DNA from: Halorussus ruber
GTDB taxonomy: Archaea; Halobacteriota; Halobacteria; Halobacteriales; Haladaptataceae
Assembly: GCF_004765785.1 (NCBI RefSeq)
Contig: NZ_SBIT01000002.1
Location: 372,001 to 436,000, forward strand
Length of the DNA: 64,000 bases
Reading direction: 5' to 3'
Below the pieces are notes generated by a model. That model ran no database searches. It saw nothing but the letters and a program-made list of their open reading frames with translations, and was not told where the DNA came from. The position numbers and the translations under genes are program-made. Below, in pieces: positions 36,214 through 43,946 of the stretch. The stretch's first letter is position 1, and each line of letters starts with the position of its first letter.

Positions 36214-36236
36214 GCAATGCGTTCGTGGTCGGTGAC

Positions 36237-37652
36237 ATGAATCTCCCCAGTCGCCCGATTCCCCGCAGGTGGGTAGTCCGGGGCGCGGTCGCGCTCCTCG
36301 TCCTCGCGCTGGTCGCGCCCGCTGGCATCTCCGGGGCGTCGTACTTCGCAACCGCCGAGGACCCCGGGAACCTCCGCGCGTCGGTGGACGACCCAGCGAA
36401 CGGAATCACGATCATCTCGATTCAGGGCTTTCACTTCAAGGGGATGGCCAACGCCAACAAGCCCGCGAGGCTCGTCGCGGTCGGCCCGCGCGGAAACGTC
36501 GAGTGGGTCCACAACGGGTCCGGATTCGACGCCCGGTGGTTCTACGACGTGGACCCGCTGGAGAACCGCAACCTGCTCGTGACCGCGACGACGCCGAACG
36601 CCACGCTGGTCTACGAGTTGAACCCCGAGACCCAAGAGCGGGTCTGGACCGAGCGCCTGCCCATCCACGACACCCACGACGTGGACCTCATCAACGGCGA
36701 CCAGTTGCTCGTGGCGAACATGCGCGAACCGAGATACGACGACCGCATCTTCGTCTACAACACGACGACCGACGAGCGCGTCTGGGAGTGGGAGTTCCGC
36801 GACCACGGCTACCCCGAGGAGGGCGGCGGCGGGCCGAAGGACTGGACCCACGTCAACGACATCGACAAGATCGGGGAGGGCGAGTATCTGGTCTCGCCGC
36901 GCAACTTCGACCAAGTCATCGTGGTGAATCGCTCGACCGGCAACGTCACGATGCAGTTGGGGAGCGACGGCGAGCATTCGACCCTCTACGAACAGCACAA
37001 CCCGACCTACCTCGAAAGCGAGAACGGGACGCCGACGGTGCTGGTGGCCGACAGCGAGAACGACCGAGTGGTCGAGTACGAGAGAACCGGCGGCCCGGCG
37101 GGCAACGGGAGTTGGACGAAAACGTGGAGCATCGGCACGCGCGGCCTCAACTGGCCGCGGGACGCCGACCGCCTGCCCAACGGCAACACGCTCGTCGTGG
37201 ACACGATGCACCACCGCGTCTTCGAGGTGACCCCGACCGGCGAAGTCGTCTGGGAGTTCCACGCGCCGTGGGCACCCTACGACGTCGAACGCATCGCCTA
37301 CGGCGACGAACCCGACGGCCCGACCATGCGCGACCTCGGGAAGTCCGGCGACTACGACCTCAGCGGGAGCGGCCTGAAGGTCTCCGGCAAGGACACAAAG
37401 ACGGTCTCGTTCTGGCTGGTCGAGACGTTCGAGGAGACCCCGGTCGCCGCGCAGGCCGAGGAGTTCGCCCGCTTCTGGGCGCACGTCACGCCGTGGATTC
37501 GGCCCATCTGGATGACGAGTTGGGAGTTCCTCGCCGCGTTACTGGCCAGCGGCGTCCTGCTGGCGTGGGGCCTCGGCGAAGTGGTCTACCAGCGCAGGCG
37601 GATTCGAGGCGGCGTCGCTCGATTGCGGAGGCGACTAACAGAAAGAACGTGA
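36237..37652 (+). CDS. Arylsulfotransferase (ASST)-like beta-propeller membrane protein
   Basis: A 471-residue protein with a signal-anchor helix at the N terminus (VVRGAVALLVLALVAPAG), a large extracellular domain and a C-terminal transmembrane helix (SWEFLAALLASGVLLAWGLG) before a basic tail. The outer domain shows propeller-blade repeats with the pattern YELNPETQERVWTERL, NTTTDERVWEWEF, VNRSTGNVTMQLG and VFEVTPTGEVVWEF. H-D/H-N motifs such as DTHDVDLINGDQLLVAN and THVNDIDKIG match arylsulfotransferase-type propellers. The true acceptor is unknown, and haloarchaeal members may not be sulfotransferases. Confidence 0.8.
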   Translation: MNLPSRPIPRRWVVRGAVALLVLALVAPAGISGASYFATAEDPGNLRASVDDPANGITIISIQGFHFKGMANANKPARLVAVGPRGNVEWVHNGSGFDARWFYDVDPLENRNLLVTATTPNATLVYELNPETQERVWTERLPIHDTHDVDLINGDQLLVANMREPRYDDRIFVYNTTTDERVWEWEFRDHGYPEEGGGGPKDWTHVNDIDKIGEGEYLVSPRNFDQVIVVNRSTGNVTMQLGSDGEHSTLYEQHNPTYLESENGTPTVLVADSENDRVVEYERTGGPAGNGSWTKTWSIGTRGLNWPRDADRLPNGNTLVVDTMHHRVFEVTPTGEVVWEFHAPWAPYDVERIAYGDEPDGPTMRDLGKSGDYDLSGSGLKVSGKDTKTVSFWLVETFEETPVAAQAEEFARFWAHVTPWIRPIWMTSWEFLAALLASGVLLAWGLGEVVYQRRRIRGGVARLRRRLTERT

Positions 37653-37750: not shown

Positions 37751-38428
37751 TTACGCGTCTTCGAGGCAGAACCACCAATCCTTGCAGTCGTAGTCCTCGT
37801 CTTCGGCCGCTTCGAGTCGGGCCTCAACGCCCTCGGCGTCACTCGGCGGCGAGAGCAGAACCTTGTCGCCGAACTTCTGGTTGTCGGGCCAATCGCCGGG
37901 GACCGCGACGTCCTCGTCGTCCGAGAGCTGGAGCGCCTTCAGCGACCGGAGAATCTCGTCGATGTTTCGGCCGATTTCCATCGGGTAGTAGAGGATGAGT
38001 CGCAGAACGCCGTCGGGGTCTACGAGGAATACGGACCGGACCGTCGCAGTCCCGGCACCGGGATGAAGCATGCCGAGTTTCTCGGCGACTCGACCGCGCT
38101 CGTCGGCGATGATGGGGAACTCGATGTCTACGTCGAGTTCCTCGTCGATCCACTCGGTCCACTTGAGGTGCGAGTGGACGCGGTCTACCGAGAGACCGAC
38201 GAGATTCGCGTCGAGGTCCGCAAACTCGTCGCTACGCTGCTGGAAGGCGACGAACTCGCTCGTACAGACCGGCGTGAAGTCGCCGGGGTGGCTGAACAGG
38301 ACGAACCACTCGTCCTCGTAGTCGTCGGGAAGCGACAGCGTCCCGTGAGTCGTCTCGGCTTCGATTTCGGGGAACTGGTCGCCGATGAGCGGCATACCGT
38401 CTCGGGCAGTTTCGGTTTCGTCTGACAT
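37751..38428 (-). CDS. Peroxiredoxin (1-Cys/Prx6 type)
   Basis: Reduces hydrogen peroxide and organic peroxides. The peroxidatic cysteine is C55 in SHPGDFTPVCTSEFVAF, with the Thr and Arg partners of the family. VDRVHSHLKWTEWI and the long C-terminal domain with YYPMEIGRNIDEILRSLKALQ are typical of Prx6-like archaeal enzymes. The end YDCKDWWFCLEDA adds a C-X6-C pair that may serve as resolving cysteines. The ATG at 38428 begins MSDETETARDGMPLIGDQFPE; the 30-codon upstream extension is not conserved. It lies next to the sulfide cluster on the same strand, separated by 293 bases. Confidence 0.92.
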   Translation of the reverse strand: MSDETETARDGMPLIGDQFPEIEAETTHGTLSLPDDYEDEWFVLFSHPGDFTPVCTSEFVAFQQRSDEFADLDANLVGLSVDRVHSHLKWTEWIDEELDVDIEFPIIADERGRVAEKLGMLHPGAGTATVRSVFLVDPDGVLRLILYYPMEIGRNIDEILRSLKALQLSDDEDVAVPGDWPDNQKFGDKVLLSPPSDAEGVEARLEAAEDEDYDCKDWWFCLEDA

Positions 38429-38721
38429 CGCAATTGGTCGTAGAACCCCCAAAAATATACCCGCATCCAAAGGGGAAGTTATTACTTCCAAAACTAGCTT
38501 AGAGGAATCATAAAACATATTTTCGGGATTCGAAATCAGATAGCACGCTACGGTTCGGCCGAGTCGCGTTCGAGAAATTGCCCGGAGGAGTTGATTCCTT
38601 CGATGACACAGAAAGTTGCCACGTACACAAGTCTGCCTTTCCTACCGACAGCTAACGGATAGCTGTCGAAAAAGAAGTACGTGAATATGCCCCGTGAGTA
38701 TCGGGGGCTAGGCCGACTTCG

Positions 38722-39558
38722 CTACTTCTTCTGCAGGGCGGTTCCCATCCGGCGGAGCGCCTCGACCAGCGTGCCGAGCGCGCGCTTCACGTCCGAATCC
38801 CGAAGCGCCGAGAACAGGCCCAGCGGGCCGACCTTCTTCGGTTCCGTGTCGTCGGTGAACGCGGTCATCCCGGCCTGTAGCGCCTCGGCGATTTCCGGTT
38901 GGGCGGCCGTCTCGCCGACCGCGACCAGATTCTCCAAGTTCTGACCCAACTCGTACATGTCGGGCGTCTCGCGCTCGGACCGAGCATCGGCGAAACCGGC
39001 GACCAGCATCCGGAGTTCGGCGATGGGTTTGCGGTTCTCCCGCGCGAGGTCGATGCCCTCGGGCACGAGGTCGTCCGCGAGGTCTTTCGTCACTTCGAGC
39101 AGTTCGACGTGTTCGAGGAGGACGTCGGTGTTCTGCCCGAGGCGTTCGAGCAGCAGTATCGTCTCCTCTTTCTCGAACGCGTACCGGAGGCGTTCGACGG
39201 TCTCCCGGTTCTCGCGGGCAACCACGATGAGTTCCGGAAGCAGGTCCTCGACCAGTCCCTGCGAGACCTCCAGCAGGTCCAGCAGTTCGACCAGTTGCTC
39301 GGAGCTCTCGCCGACGCGCTGGAGCAGGACCAGCGTCTCTTCCTTCTCGAAGGCCATCCGTAGCTCTTCGATTGGTTCGCGGTTCTCGCGGGTGACCTCC
39401 ACGAGTTCGGGCACCAACTCCTCGGCCAGTCCCTGCGTCGCGTCGAGCAGGTCCAACAGTTCCGCGAGGTCGTCGGCGTTCGCTTCTATCTTGGCGACGA
39501 GTTCGTCGAGGTCTCGCTCCTCGACGTCTGTCGCCGCCTGTGTTTGAGTGTCTGACAT
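38722..39558 (-). CDS. DUF1641 protein with internal repeats, partner of Sqr
   Basis: A 278-residue, highly helical acidic protein of the DUF1641 family. It contains three copies of a roughly 50-residue unit: L-E-LLDLLxxxxGLxxxLVPELxxVxRENRExxExLRxxFEKEE, seen near residues 35-80, 85-130 and 135-180. The last 70 residues hold the family's PEIAEALQAGMTAF region and GLFSALRDSDVKRALGTLVEALRRMG. It starts nine bases after the stop of the sulfide:quinone oxidoreductase gene, so the two are an operon. The family often accompanies Sqr-like flavoproteins, where it may act as a membrane or electron-transfer partner; that role is not proven. Confidence 0.87.
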   Translation of the reverse strand: MSDTQTQAATDVEERDLDELVAKIEANADDLAELLDLLDATQGLAEELVPELVEVTRENREPIEELRMAFEKEETLVLLQRVGESSEQLVELLDLLEVSQGLVEDLLPELIVVARENRETVERLRYAFEKEETILLLERLGQNTDVLLEHVELLEVTKDLADDLVPEGIDLARENRKPIAELRMLVAGFADARSERETPDMYELGQNLENLVAVGETAAQPEIAEALQAGMTAFTDDTEPKKVGPLGLFSALRDSDVKRALGTLVEALRRMGTALQKK

Positions 39559-39567
39559 TGTGACCAC

Positions 39568-40740
39568 CTACGGGAGCGGGTCGTAGCCCCGGAGCCAGAG
39601 GTTCCAGTAGACGCTGGGCAGGACGTTCACGTCGAGAATCCAGTTGAGTTTGCTCTCGACGGGCGCGGAGATGCTGTCTTCGTAGTCGAACTCCGCCATC
39701 ATCGCCTTGCCCTTCTGGGTCAGGAGCGGGCACGCCGCGTAGCCGTCGTACTCCGCTTTCATCGGCTTGTCTTCCATGAGCGACGCGATATTCTTTGCGA
39801 CCACGTGGGCCTCCTTCCGGGCGGCGGCCGCCGTCTTGGAGTGGGGTGCGTTCTCACAGTCGCCCAGCGCGAACACGTCGTCGTACTCGGTGTGCTGGAG
39901 CGAGTGCTGGTCGATGGTCACGTACTCGCCGTCCTCGCTCCCGTCGGCCAGCGGGGAGTTCTCCGTGATGGCTTTCTGGCCGTACTGGGGCGTGACCGGC
40001 GCGAGGAAGTCGTATTCGAGTTCCCGACCGTCGGCGCTGTGGACGACCTGAGCGTCGGGGTCGATTTCCTCGACCGAGAAGTTCGCCTCGAACGTGATGT
40101 CGCGCTCGTCCCAGAGGTCGTAGAGTTTCTCGCGGTAGGGCTGGACGCCGAAGTGATGGTCGGCGTTCCGGGTCATGACGACCTCGGACTCCTCGCGGAT
40201 GCCCTTCCGCCGGAGGTAGTCGTCGGCGAGCATCGTCATCTTCAGCGGCGCGCCGGGGCACTTGATGGGGGTGTCCGGCTGGGTGACGACGAAGGTGCCG
40301 CCGTCGAAGTCCTCGAGGGCTTCCTGCATCTCCATCGCGGCCTCGTAGTGGTAGAAGGGGAAGACGGAGTCGGTCTCCTGCCAGCCTTCGAGCAGGCCGG
40401 GGGTGGCCTCGGGGTCGAGGCGGTGGCCGGTCGCCACGACGAGGTAGTCGTAGTCGAGATTCCCGTCGCCCAGTTCGACCGTCTTCTCGTCGGGATTCAC
40501 GCCGACGACTTCGTCGTTGACGAACTCGATACCGTTGTCGAATAGCTCCGTCACGTCCCGGGCCTGCTCCTCGGCGTCGAGGTAGCCGAACGGGAGGAGA
40601 TAGAAGGACGGCTGGTAGAGGTGTTTCGTGCTCTTGTCTACGACGGTGATGTCCGCCTCGTCTCGGTCTAGCTTTCGCCGGAGGATGTTCGCGGTCATCG
40701 CACCGCCGGTGCCAGCGCCGAGAACGGCAATTTTTGTCAT
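39568..40740 (-). CDS. sqr: Sulfide:quinone oxidoreductase-like flavoprotein
   Basis: A 390-residue FAD enzyme oxidising sulfide to protein-bound persulfide or polysulfide and reducing quinone. The N terminus MTKIAVLGAGTGGAMTANIL is the FAD dinucleotide fold. VVATGHRLDPEATPGL and DDVFALGDCENAPHSKTAAAARKEA are the other FAD contacts. The two redox cysteines expected for Sqr are present: C161 in TPIKCPGAPLKMTM and C337 in YAACPLLTQKGKAM. The start at 40740 is preferred over the ATG at 40764, because the TATA-like tattaat (about 40771-40778) is at leaderless distance from the former. It heads the sqr-DUF1641 operon. Confidence 0.9.
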   Translation of the reverse strand: MTKIAVLGAGTGGAMTANILRRKLDRDEADITVVDKSTKHLYQPSFYLLPFGYLDAEEQARDVTELFDNGIEFVNDEVVGVNPDEKTVELGDGNLDYDYLVVATGHRLDPEATPGLLEGWQETDSVFPFYHYEAAMEMQEALEDFDGGTFVVTQPDTPIKCPGAPLKMTMLADDYLRRKGIREESEVVMTRNADHHFGVQPYREKLYDLWDERDITFEANFSVEEIDPDAQVVHSADGRELEYDFLAPVTPQYGQKAITENSPLADGSEDGEYVTIDQHSLQHTEYDDVFALGDCENAPHSKTAAAARKEAHVVAKNIASLMEDKPMKAEYDGYAACPLLTQKGKAMMAEFDYEDSISAPVESKLNWILDVNVLPSVYWNLWLRGYDPLP

Positions 40741-40769
40741 ACCGACTGTTTCTTGGGACTCCATACCGA

Positions 40770-40779
40770 TTAATAGAGA
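40770..40779 (-). promoter_or_regulatory. TATA box of the sqr operon
   Basis: On the minus strand, ctattaatcg lies about 30 bases before the ATG at 40740. It separates the sqr operon's own transcript from that of the upstream rhodanese fusion gene. Confidence 0.45.
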
Positions 40780-40850
40780 GATAGCAACAATAATCTTGTG
40801 TACCGTCCCCAAAACCGTAGACAGAGGAAATTCTAACCGGAGTTCGACTG

Positions 40851-41948
40851 CTACTCGTCGGTCTCGACCGGGGCGTCCACGAGGTTGGCCCACTCGGTCC
40901 ACGACCCGTCGTAGTTGCGCACGTCGTCGTAGCCCAGCAGTTCCGAGAGGACGAACCAGACGACGGCCGAGCGCTCGCCGAGGTGGCAGTAGACGATGAC
41001 CTCGTCGTTCGGGAAGATGCCCTCCTCCTCGAACAGCCGCCGGAGTTCCGACTCGCTCTTGAATCGCCCGTCGTCGTCGTCGACCACTTCCGACCACGGC
41101 AAGTGAACCGACCCGGGGACGTGACCGCCGACCATCGTCTCGGGGGCGTCGGCGTCGGGCGGCGAGCGCCTATCGCCGGAGAACTCGGCGGCGCTCCGAA
41201 CGTCGAGGAGTTTCGTGTCCTGGACCAGCGCGGCCTCGACGTCGTCCCGCCTCGCGCGAAGGTGTTCGAAGGGACCGCGCGCCTCGTAGGTCTGGGTCGA
41301 GAAGGCCGGGACCTCGGTCGTGGTCTGATAGCCGAGTTCCAGCCAGTAGTTCCGCCCGCCGTTCAACAGCGAGACGCTCTCGTGGCCGAAGTACTTGAAC
41401 AGCCAGTAGGCGTAGGCCGCGAACCAGTTCGACTGGTCGCCGTAGAGGACGACGGTGCTGTCGTCGGTAATGCCGTGTTCGCCTAGCAGGTCCTCGAACT
41501 GTTCTTTCGGAGCAATACCACGGCCGTTCTCGCCGGTCAGGTCGGTCTGCCAGTCGAGGCGAATCGCGCCGGGAATGTGAGACTCCTCGTAGGACCCGGT
41601 CGTATCCACCTCCACGAGTCGGAAGGCCGGGTCGTCGCTCCGGAACCGGTCGAGTCGGTCCCGTACCCACTCGGCCTCGACCAGCACGTCGTTGGCGTAC
41701 TCGTGCCCGCCGCCGACGGTCAGTTCGTAACACGTCTGGCGCGCGTCGTGCAGGGCGGGCATCGACTCGACCAGTCCGGCCTCCTCCAGTTTCTCGATGC
41801 CGTATCGGGTGGTCCGGGCCGACAGCATCGTCTCCTCGATGAGGGTCTTCTGGGTGGCACGCCCGTGGCGTTCGAGCGTCTTGAAGATGAACTTGGAACT
41901 GGGCGGGAGGTCCTCGAGTTTCTCTCGAACGTCGTCGGAAATCGCCAT
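40851..41948 (-). CDS. Winged-helix/tandem-rhodanese fusion (sulfurtransferase)
   Basis: A 365-residue protein made of a DNA-binding domain and a thiosulfate/3-mercaptopyruvate sulfurtransferase. Residues about 15-75 form a winged helix (KFIFKTLERHGRATQKTLIEETMLSARTTRYGIEKLEEAGLVES). Rhodanese domain 1 (about 95-225) lacks the active cysteine (VVLYGDQSNWFA). Domain 2 has C321 in VIVYCHLGERSAVVW, the persulfide-carrying residue. It could regulate the sulfide genes according to its persulfide state, or simply be a tethered enzyme; this is inference. The ATG at 41948 has a TATA-like acataac about 30 bases upstream on the minus strand. It is divergent from the rhodanese/MBL gene. Confidence 0.88.
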   Translation of the reverse strand: MAISDDVREKLEDLPPSSKFIFKTLERHGRATQKTLIEETMLSARTTRYGIEKLEEAGLVESMPALHDARQTCYELTVGGGHEYANDVLVEAEWVRDRLDRFRSDDPAFRLVEVDTTGSYEESHIPGAIRLDWQTDLTGENGRGIAPKEQFEDLLGEHGITDDSTVVLYGDQSNWFAAYAYWLFKYFGHESVSLLNGGRNYWLELGYQTTTEVPAFSTQTYEARGPFEHLRARRDDVEAALVQDTKLLDVRSAAEFSGDRRSPPDADAPETMVGGHVPGSVHLPWSEVVDDDDGRFKSESELRRLFEEEGIFPNDEVIVYCHLGERSAVVWFVLSELLGYDDVRNYDGSWTEWANLVDAPVETDE

Positions 41949-42173
41949 CGGTATTTGAGACCTAGTACCCGCCGACCGGTTATGTGATTGACGGTCCGTC
42001 TGGACCAGTTGTTCAATCGCGCGCACATCTACGCCGGTCGTTCGAGGCCGGAAGTCAGGGAAGCGGAAATAATGTTGCTTACCTCCGTCGGTGCGGCAGT
42101 ATTTGCGAGAGAAGCGGAAACAAGAGAGTTCTGACCAACCCTTAATATTGTACGGTGAATACAAGATACTGTA
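41949..42173. promoter_or_regulatory. Divergent promoter region of the sulfur cluster
   Basis: 225 bases between the winged-helix/rhodanese gene and the rhodanese/MBL gene. The plus-strand TATA box cttaatat (42141-42148) lies 29 bases before the ATG at 42174. The minus-strand acataac (about 41978-41985) serves the other gene. A small dyad GGTCC-gtct-GGACC lies at about 41993-42006. A regulator of the cluster would be expected to bind here. Confidence 0.5.
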
Positions 42174-43352
42174 ATGGTTCAGGAGATCACCGTCGAACGG
42201 CTTCGAGACAAGATCGACGCGGACGACGACTTCACGCTCTTCGACACGCGAGCGCCGGAGGACTACGACGACTGGCACATCGCCGAGGCAGTAAACGTCG
42301 AGTACTCCGGCTCGAACGACGAACTGGTCGGCGACTTCGATTCGTTCCGCGAGGAGCTATCGAAGGACGACGAGATTATCACCATCTGTGCGACCGGGAA
42401 CTCGGCGAGTTCGTTCGCCGAGTGGCTCGAAGCGGAGGGCTTCGAGAACGTCAAGACCGTCGAGGGCGGCATGGAGGCCTGGAGCATGGTCTACGACGTG
42501 GTTCCCATCTCGACCAAGGACGACGACGTGGAAATCCTCCAGCTTCAGCGGCGCTCGAAGGGCTGTCTCGGCTACCTCGTCGGTGACAAGCGCACCGGCA
42601 AGGCCGCGGCAATCGACGTGACGCGCGCCACCCAGACGTTCAAAGAGGCCGCCGCGGAGCGCGGCTTCGACATCGCGCGGGTCTTCGACACCCACGTCCA
42701 CGCCGACCACATCTCCGGCGGTCGGGAACTCGCCGACGAACTCGGCGTCCCGTACCACCTCGGTCAGCCCGCCGAGACGCGCGACCCGACCTACGACTTC
42801 GACGGCATCGACCCCAACGACAGCGTCGATGTGGGCGAAGTCAGCATCAAGTCGGTCCACACGCCCGGCCACACCACGGGCATGACCTCGTGGCTGGTCG
42901 AGGACGAGGCCCTGCTCACGGGCGACACGCTGTTCGTTGAGTCCATCGGTCGGACCGAACTCCAGTTCGCCGACGCCGACGCCCGCGACGGTGCCCGCGT
43001 CCAGTACGAGACGCTCCACAAGGTCATCATGTCCCTGCCCGACGACGTGAAAATCCTGCCGGGACACTTCTCGGTCACGGACGACGGCGAGTACGTCGAC
43101 GTGACGCCGGGCCTGCCCATGATGTCCACGGTCGGCGAAATCTGGGAGTCCAACGAGATTCTCCGCCTCGACGAGGACGAGTTCGTCGAACACATGTTCG
43201 AGAACCTCCCGTCGAAGCCCCCGAACTACGAGACGGTCATCGCCACCAACGAGGGGAGCTACACGCCCGAGGACGAGGACGAGGAGAACGAACTCGAACT
43301 CGGCCCGAACCGGTGTGCCGCCACGGAGGAGAGCGTCGTCGCGGACGACTAA
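42174..43352 (+). CDS. Rhodanese/metallo-beta-lactamase protein (persulfide dioxygenase-like)
   Basis: A 392-residue two-domain protein. The N-terminal rhodanese (1-108) has C72 in TICATGNSASSFAEWL. The C-terminal MBL domain has the metal motif THVHADH at 173-179, HTPGHTTGM and TGDTLFVESIGR, the ETHE1-like persulfide dioxygenase pattern. It probably oxidises persulfide to sulfite, and the rhodanese moves the sulfur on. The order is rhodanese first, the reverse of the best-known bacterial fusions. The acidic C-terminal 40 residues are a haloarchaeal extension. It is divergent from the winged-helix/rhodanese gene, and a TATA box 29 bases upstream predicts a leaderless transcript. Confidence 0.9.
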   Translation: MVQEITVERLRDKIDADDDFTLFDTRAPEDYDDWHIAEAVNVEYSGSNDELVGDFDSFREELSKDDEIITICATGNSASSFAEWLEAEGFENVKTVEGGMEAWSMVYDVVPISTKDDDVEILQLQRRSKGCLGYLVGDKRTGKAAAIDVTRATQTFKEAAAERGFDIARVFDTHVHADHISGGRELADELGVPYHLGQPAETRDPTYDFDGIDPNDSVDVGEVSIKSVHTPGHTTGMTSWLVEDEALLTGDTLFVESIGRTELQFADADARDGARVQYETLHKVIMSLPDDVKILPGHFSVTDDGEYVDVTPGLPMMSTVGEIWESNEILRLDEDEFVEHMFENLPSKPPNYETVIATNEGSYTPEDEDEENELELGPNRCAATEESVVADD

Positions 43353-43688
43353 ACCGAACCGGCGTCCCAGCCTGACCGCGGTTCCGAACACCCGGACCGC
43401 GGATTCAATCCGGGCCGAGATTCCAACCCTGACCTCGGCACTAACCTAGACCTCGATTCCGGCCCGGACCTCGATTCCAGCGTCCACACTCCGTAGCGAC
43501 GTTCCCATTCGCTTCCCATTCCAGTTTCTGGGTCGCCCGACCCCGAGGTAGGTCGGGCGCTCTCGCTATCGACCGAGCCGCGGCTTCGCTCTCGCCGACG
43601 ACGAGCCGCGACCGCGCTCGCGTCGTCGATTCCGACACGCGCTACCGACACCATCACGCTCTTGTCTCCGAGACGACTATCCCGCGAT
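43353..43688. other. Intergenic region with degenerate 18-bp repeats
   Basis: 336 bases without a credible CDS. Bases about 43375-43485 carry an imperfect repeat of roughly 18 bases built on GACCTCGATTCC(G/A)G. On the other strand a frame is open, but its product is only a repeating Arg-Ser-Gly string. After that comes GC-rich sequence without structure I can name. Confidence 0.45.
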
Positions 43689-43946
43689 ATGTCGAACATC
43701 GTGCTGTACGACCTGCCGGGATGCCCGTTCTGCGCCAAGGTCAAGAACAAGTTGGACGAGTTGGGCCTCGACTACGACGTTATCGAGGTCCCGCGCTCGC
43801 ACGCCCAGCGAACCGAAGTCGAGGAGGTCAGCGGCCAGACCGGCGTCCCCGTCATCGTGGACGAGGACCACGGCGTCGAGGGCATGCCCGAGAGCAGCGA
43901 CATCGTGGAGTATCTGGAAGAGACCTACGGCAACGGCGCGGCCTGA
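43689..43946 (+). CDS. Glutaredoxin-like protein
   Basis: An 85-residue thioredoxin-fold protein with the redox pair C12-P-F-C15 in LPGCPFCAKVKNKLDEL. TGVPVIVDE supplies the cis-proline, and EGMPESSDIVEYLEETYG the last helix with the conserved S/D pair. Haloarchaea use gamma-glutamylcysteine instead of glutathione, so the reductant is probably that thiol or a thioredoxin reductase. It sits near the persulfide cluster but is separated by 336 bases. Confidence 0.92.
   Translation: MSNIVLYDLPGCPFCAKVKNKLDELGLDYDVIEVPRSHAQRTEVEEVSGQTGVPVIVDEDHGVEGMPESSDIVEYLEETYGNGAA

Follow-up and report, generated by a model that had tools for sequence, protein, structure and literature searches.

We analysed a 64,000-nucleotide stretch of haloarchaeal DNA from Halorussus ruber (contig NZ_SBIT01000002.1, positions 372,001 to 436,000), referred to here as the window, in which a gene encoding a winged-helix domain fused to a tandem rhodanese (the fusion, below) lies among genes of sulfide oxidation (Table 1). 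A preliminary description of this DNA had assigned four genes to one locus, namely sulfide:quinone oxidoreductase (SQR), DUF1641, the fusion with its cysteine C321, and a divergent rhodanese/metallo-beta-lactamase (MBL) gene, and all four were recovered in their places. The association goes far beyond chance, since the same fusion was found 38 times in the genomes fetched, mostly with the same gene set and including a second copy in the genome of the window. The four-gene extent proved too narrow, as the conserved module also takes in a peroxiredoxin (PRX) gene. The division into two operons needs a similar correction: a 110-bp upstream region belongs to SQR itself, so that three promoter regions matter, not two.

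Table 1. Genes, cysteine codons and candidate operators of the fusion locus, in window positions.
Feature	Position	Strand	Remarks
Peroxiredoxin (PRX) gene	37751-38428	minus	NCBIfam NF009668, E 1e-98; member of the conserved module, recurs beside the fusion in most loci
Weak operator candidate GTAATAACTTC	38475-38485		-57 of PRX, 5.6 bits
Operator candidate GAAAATATGTT	38514-38524		-96 of PRX, 7.7 bits, short of the 8-bit threshold
DUF1641 protein gene	38722-39558	minus	PF07849, E 7e-11; directly downstream of SQR
Sulfide:quinone oxidoreductase (SQR) gene	39568-40740	minus	Human SQOR 6mp5, E 2e-64
Operator candidate AAGATTATTGT	40787-40797		Proximal register, -57 of SQR, 8.8 bits
Winged-helix/tandem-rhodanese fusion, 365 residues	40851-41948	minus	Winged helix ~14-80, flexible linker 79-82, rhodanese pair 87-362
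Codon of C321 (rhodanese catalytic cysteine, YCHLGERS)	40986-40988	minus	From the alignment of fusions
Codon of C73 (wing strand of the winged helix)	41730-41732	minus	Fusion-specific conserved cysteine
Operator candidate GAAATAATGTT	42066-42076		Distal register, -108 of rhodanese/MBL, 9.0 bits
Operator candidate GCAGTATTTGC	42096-42106		-78 of rhodanese/MBL, 11.4 bits
Rhodanese/MBL gene, persulfide-dioxygenase-like	42174-43352	plus	Divergent; Rhodanese 8e-20, Lactamase_B 2e-11

The winged helix of the fusion was recognised over residues 22-80 by the Pfam family HTH_27, above its curated cut-off, and HTH_24 likewise scored above cut-off. The MarR profiles fell just below theirs, and the HTH_5/ArsR profile was not matched; no ArsR profile was listed in the Pfam scan, only HTH_20 with an E value of 0.016, below its cut-off. 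The rest of the protein matches the Pfam Rhodanese profile in two stretches (E 5e-34), and residues 87-362 match the tandem rhodaneses 1uar and 3hwi (E ~1e-75) over a length equal to that of these solved enzymes. Of the two rhodanese domains, the C-terminal carries C321, the catalytic cysteine, in its six-residue loop (CHLGERS), and the N-terminal has no cysteine at the equivalent place. In an AlphaFold model (predicted local distance difference test 87) the N-terminal domain is predicted with confidence and forms helices at 5-12, 16-28, 33-40 and 44-56 and wing strands at 60-64 and 72-76, the second of which is predicted to hold a further cysteine, C73. A Foldseek search with this model retrieved tandem rhodaneses at E 1e-28. 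When the winged helix was modelled alone without an alignment its wing came out helical, unlike the aligned full model with its wing strands, and its matches in the PDB were weak, the informative ones all being regulators.

To delimit the distribution of the fusion, we used its N-terminal 150 residues as a query against 391 genomes of the class and counted as fusions the matches running from residue 4-11 through 138-149. These came from about 29 genomes, to which a family search added one; 38 fusions, that of the window included, were compared in 17-kb loci, and the window genome carries two. SQR-DUF1641 adjoins the fusion in 31 of the 38 loci, usually together with PRX and rhodanese/MBL, and DUF1641 adjoins SQR wherever both are found in fusion loci. 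In about half of the loci the rhodanese/MBL gene is transcribed divergently from the fusion, and in most others it lies downstream of the peroxiredoxin. Three further fusion loci are cut by contig ends or contain only part of the gene set; two fusions (L095 and L102) have no SQR beside them and are second copies, their genomes having an SQR at a different locus; and in genome G037 the SQR lies elsewhere on the fusion's replicon. No regulator gene other than the fusion recurs in 6 or more of the loci. Among 155 genomes sampled, 15 have an SQR (E<1e-110), 14 of these also have the fusion, and no fusion genome lacks SQR (Fisher 5e-19, with related genomes counted as separate observations, as in all our statistics). 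The one SQR genome lacking the fusion, G040, combines SQR-DUF1641 with a tandem rhodanese that stands alone.

In a comparison with 110 stand-alone domains, 37/37 fused rhodaneses group in a single clade (support 0.997), which implies a single fusion event, after which the gene reached at least five of the families in the class. Outside the class no fusion was found in a sample of the phylum (197 genomes) or among the best 80 loci kept from a contig scan, and rare cases elsewhere may exist. An Anaerolinea match (L193) that seemed to reach the winged helix was rejected, the upstream sequence not being a winged helix. The second copy in the window genome (L096, G000:C9:59000-76000) belongs to another complete module (fusion, SQR, DUF1641 and PRX), which has a perfect operator, GAAATAATTTC, and in which all that corresponds to rhodanese/MBL is a single rhodanese of 114 residues.

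Only two cysteine columns are near-constant across the 38 aligned fusions: C73, present in 36, and C321, present in all 36 copies that cover it. Nine further fusions carry both (9/9 each), bringing C73 to 45 of 47. The two fusions without C73 are L103, which has a cysteine two residues earlier (C71), and L102, which is not at an SQR locus. The closest relative of the fused DNA-binding domain is a family of small (~90-130 residues) stand-alone winged-helix proteins widespread in haloarchaea (L104-L123, L005, L007, L008; PPSAKLVFKVLEYNG...SARTVRYALERLEE), to which the fused winged helix is 41-59% identical. In these proteins residue 73 is L, I or V in 23/23 and cysteine in none, so that C73 arrived, or became fixed, with the fusion. 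The winged helix, including its recognition helix, is retained in 38/38 fusions. A DNA-binding domain and conserved cysteines of reactive type are thereby combined in one chain.

An unseeded motif finder returned the palindrome GMAATWATTKC separately from the SQR, rhodanese/MBL and fusion promoter sets. At width 11 the log-likelihood of the motif in the SQR promoters was 132, versus 17 in shuffled sequences. Using a scoring matrix trained on SQR promoters only, with a threshold of 8 bits, we found sites in 31/33 SQR, 17/34 rhodanese/MBL, 24/38 fusion and 16/26 PRX promoters; as rhodanese/MBL and the fusion often have a common intergenic region, their site counts are not independent. Sites of this strength occurred in 2 of 184 control promoters and in 0/33 regions upstream of DUF1641, the internal gene of the SQR operon. 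The registers are fixed, at about -97 or -109 and at -57 from the start codon, and in the SQR promoters the informative columns are limited to -96..-88, -54..-47 and, at -33..-29, the TATA region. Where two sites are present they are ~40 bp apart before SQR and 51-52 bp apart before rhodanese/MBL, distances close to four and five helical turns. Eight held-out loci all have the distal SQR site, at -97/-98 (8/8), and all have both C73 and C321 (8/8). Five of the held-out promoters are at most 59% identical (ungapped) to any training promoter, while some others are close to training ones. We consider the held-out promoters, together with the conservation of register in otherwise diverged sequence, the safest evidence. 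The shuffles, the control promoters, the DUF1641 upstream regions and the held-out loci rule out a chance motif, and the promoters of sulfide-oxidation genes appear to contain a conserved candidate operator.

Without a linked fusion the palindrome is seldom found. It is present at only 1 of 17 rhodanese/MBL homologues located away from a fusion, and was not found before the SQR of the fusion-less G040 or at the second SQR in G090. G037 carries the fusion, and its unlinked SQR has a weak site (6.5 bits) in the correct register. Exact matches to the pattern number 0-5 per genome. An inverted repeat by the rhodanese/MBL start, TTGTA-N7-TACAA, had been seen by eye and was dropped after the unseeded search pointed to another element, which is conserved.

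Several other genes accompany the module. In the window a glutaredoxin gene (43662-43946, plus strand) that possibly provides a reductant for persulfides lies just downstream of rhodanese/MBL, and it is kept in G010 (L067). An ASST (arylsulfotransferase-like) protein with a predicted C-terminal membrane segment (36225-37652) adjoins the module. A thioredoxin-reductase-like gene recurs in 10 fusion loci. TauE/SafE sulfite exporter genes occur in 17 loci and cytochrome bd oxidase genes in 14 (L081, L085, L091, L094, L097 and others); neither is present in the window. TauE and bd oxidase are in keeping with export of sulfite and respiration that withstands sulfide.

Taken together, the presence of the winged helix in all copies, the association with SQR, the common candidate operator and the lack of any other recurring regulator at the loci indicate that the fusion is very probably the transcriptional regulator of the sulfide genes. 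It is most likely a one-component regulator responsive to sulfane sulfur, with C73 and C321 as its two thiols. The preliminary description had proposed that the persulfide state of C321 controls transcription directly. The conservation of C321 agrees with this, but control of transcription by C321 alone is not supported, and the wing cysteine had been missed. As C73 nearly matches C321 in conservation and none of the 23 stand-alone relatives has it, a mechanism using both thiols is more likely.

We infer that the fusion binds the palindrome through its winged helix, usually at two tandem sites that lie on one side of the helix and immediately precede the B recognition element (BRE) and TATA box. 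The regulon would consist of SQR-DUF1641, rhodanese/MBL, PRX and the fusion itself; within it SQR would oxidise sulfide, rhodanese/MBL would then oxidise persulfide, and the peroxiredoxin would protect. Sulfane sulfur from SQR would be loaded by the rhodanese onto C321, which would be persulfidated in the cell, and would reach its partner, the wing C73, either directly or via a C321-Sn-C73 link. Sulfur at C73 would then alter DNA binding by the fusion. As to the sign of regulation, activation seems somewhat more likely than repression, because the proximal site is placed just upstream of the BRE/TATA box and not on it. This preference follows from what is generally known of archaeal promoters.

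On balance we consider it probable that a haloarchaeal regulon of sulfide/persulfide oxidation has the fusion as its dedicated regulator, with the palindrome as operator and a mechanism that uses C321 and C73. More tentatively, the fusion might be a trigger enzyme, that is, a full-length thiosulfate-sulfurtransferase that passes the C321 persulfide to its own wing C73, with sulfur flux setting the transcription of the regulon at GMAATWATTKC as a new archaeal operator.

Several observations weigh against this interpretation. In the model the two domains are joined by a low-confidence linker (79-82), and the distance between C73 and C321 is not readable from it. The window's own sites are weaker than those elsewhere, such as the perfect ones of Natronorubrum bangense: its SQR promoter has only the proximal site, the distal register being degenerate, and weak sites are likewise present in its two closest relatives. 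In a subgroup of three loci (L099, L100 and L101) the catalytic loop is altered to CGVGARS; these loci have no good site before rhodanese/MBL or the fusion, and a perfect site before SQR. Finally, the stand-alone winged-helix relatives have an almost identical recognition helix, and the palindrome is found in their own promoters in only 1 of 23 cases.

Among other explanations, the one that fares best is that the fusion regulates but C73 alone is the sensing thiol and reacts directly with polysulfide, perhaps in a dimer and between its two wings, the rhodanese serving only as an enzyme that delivers or withdraws sulfur. The specificity of C73 to the fusions would fit such a sensor, as would the use by SqrR, BigR and CstR of one thiol pair and no rhodanese (PMC9774590). 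We nevertheless think it unlikely, as C321 equals or exceeds C73 in conservation and no fusion has lost the rhodanese, which is monophyletic in its fused form; this suggests that joining the two domains is important. Conversely, C321 alone could be the switch, with persulfidation of the rhodanese rearranging the domains and hence DNA binding, and C73 merely structural. This agrees with the invariance of C321 where covered and with L102, which has C321 and no C73; yet C73 is restricted to the fusions, L102 lies outside the SQR loci, and the sole SQR-linked copy without C73 (L103) has its C71 two residues off, so that we regard this possibility as improbable. It is also very unlikely that the fusion is a sulfurtransferase only, with the winged helix as a scaffold or relic and the palindrome serving a regulator encoded elsewhere: a site before the fusion itself in only 24/38 would be in keeping with this, but the winged helix and its recognition helix are kept in every copy, loci without the fusion seldom have the palindrome, and no other regulator gene recurs at the loci.

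If the interpretation we favour is true, haloarchaea gain a dedicated sulfide/persulfide regulator with a predicted operator and regulon, and an enzyme and a transcription factor are united in one chain whose covalent catalytic intermediate would be the signal. Copies of the fusion, where annotated by NCBI, are named only 'rhodanese-like domain-containing protein', and the proposed regulatory role has therefore been overlooked. With two cysteines, C73 and C321, and one DNA palindrome, the proposal is directly testable.

In the literature searched we found nothing on haloarchaeal winged-helix/rhodanese fusions and no archaeal example of a dedicated sulfide/persulfide regulator; neither this architecture, nor the wing cysteine, nor the operator was found described. 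Rv0324 of Mycobacterium tuberculosis is annotated as an ArsR regulator with a rhodanese, which the literature searches did not confirm. The preliminary description had called a one-component sulfur switch of this kind not known to be described. Sensors of persulfide that act as single components are on record (CstR, SqrR, BigR and FisR; PMC9774590).

The enzymes of the locus resemble well-studied proteins. The SQR has the flavin adenine dinucleotide fold and keeps both catalytic-type cysteines, in TPIKCPGAP and YDGYAACPLLT, with KCAGAP/KCPGAP and TSCPL/AACPL aligned in the comparison with human SQOR. The MBL part of the rhodanese/MBL protein has its best matches among enzymes of persulfide-dioxygenase type, namely 3tp9, BpPRF (5ve3) and ETHE1 (4chl). 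BpPRF, 3tp9 and Blh are persulfide dioxygenase-rhodanese fusions with the same two domain types; in the window's protein the rhodanese precedes the MBL domain, whereas in the solved entries the MBL part was matched near the N terminus. The window's protein also scores far below the Blh cut-off (48 vs 625). The rhodanese pair of the fusion is like 1uar of Thermus thermophilus and CysA2, CysA3 and SseA of M. tuberculosis in sequence (~45% identity), fold and C-R/H-x-G/A-E-R-S loop; these enzymes are without the N-terminal winged helix.

Among regulators, CstR of Staphylococcus aureus, of the CsoR family, is, as proposed for the fusion, a dithiol sensor over sulfide/persulfide detoxification genes that include rhodanese-type enzymes (PMC9774590). 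It differs in being all-helical, without winged helix or rhodanese, and the fusion does not have the DUF156 fold of the CsoR/CstR proteins. In E. coli a regulator and a separate rhodanese are encoded in one operon, ygaV-ygaP (PMC9774250). The ArsR-type sensors of sulfide and sulfane sulfur SqrR, BigR and YgaV (PMC9774590, PMC9774250) are, as the fusion probably is, winged-helix one-component regulators of sqr or of rhodanese/persulfide-dioxygenase genes, with two conserved cysteines. However, SqrR and BigR hold both cysteines inside the ArsR domain, whereas the winged helix of the fusion, which is not ArsR by Pfam, holds only C73, the second cysteine being in the fused tandem rhodanese, and the lineage is archaeal. 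The fusion therefore fails membership of the ArsR/SqrR family, both by its winged-helix profile and by the place of its second cysteine. Rhodanese-like domains have been mentioned in ArsR and ChrB regulators (PMC3817168), which, as predicted for the fusion, are DNA-binding regulators carrying such a domain. The target of ChrB is chromate resistance, and unlike both types the fusion carries a full two-domain rhodanese of thiosulfate-sulfurtransferase type, with an intact catalytic loop, within a module of sulfide oxidation.

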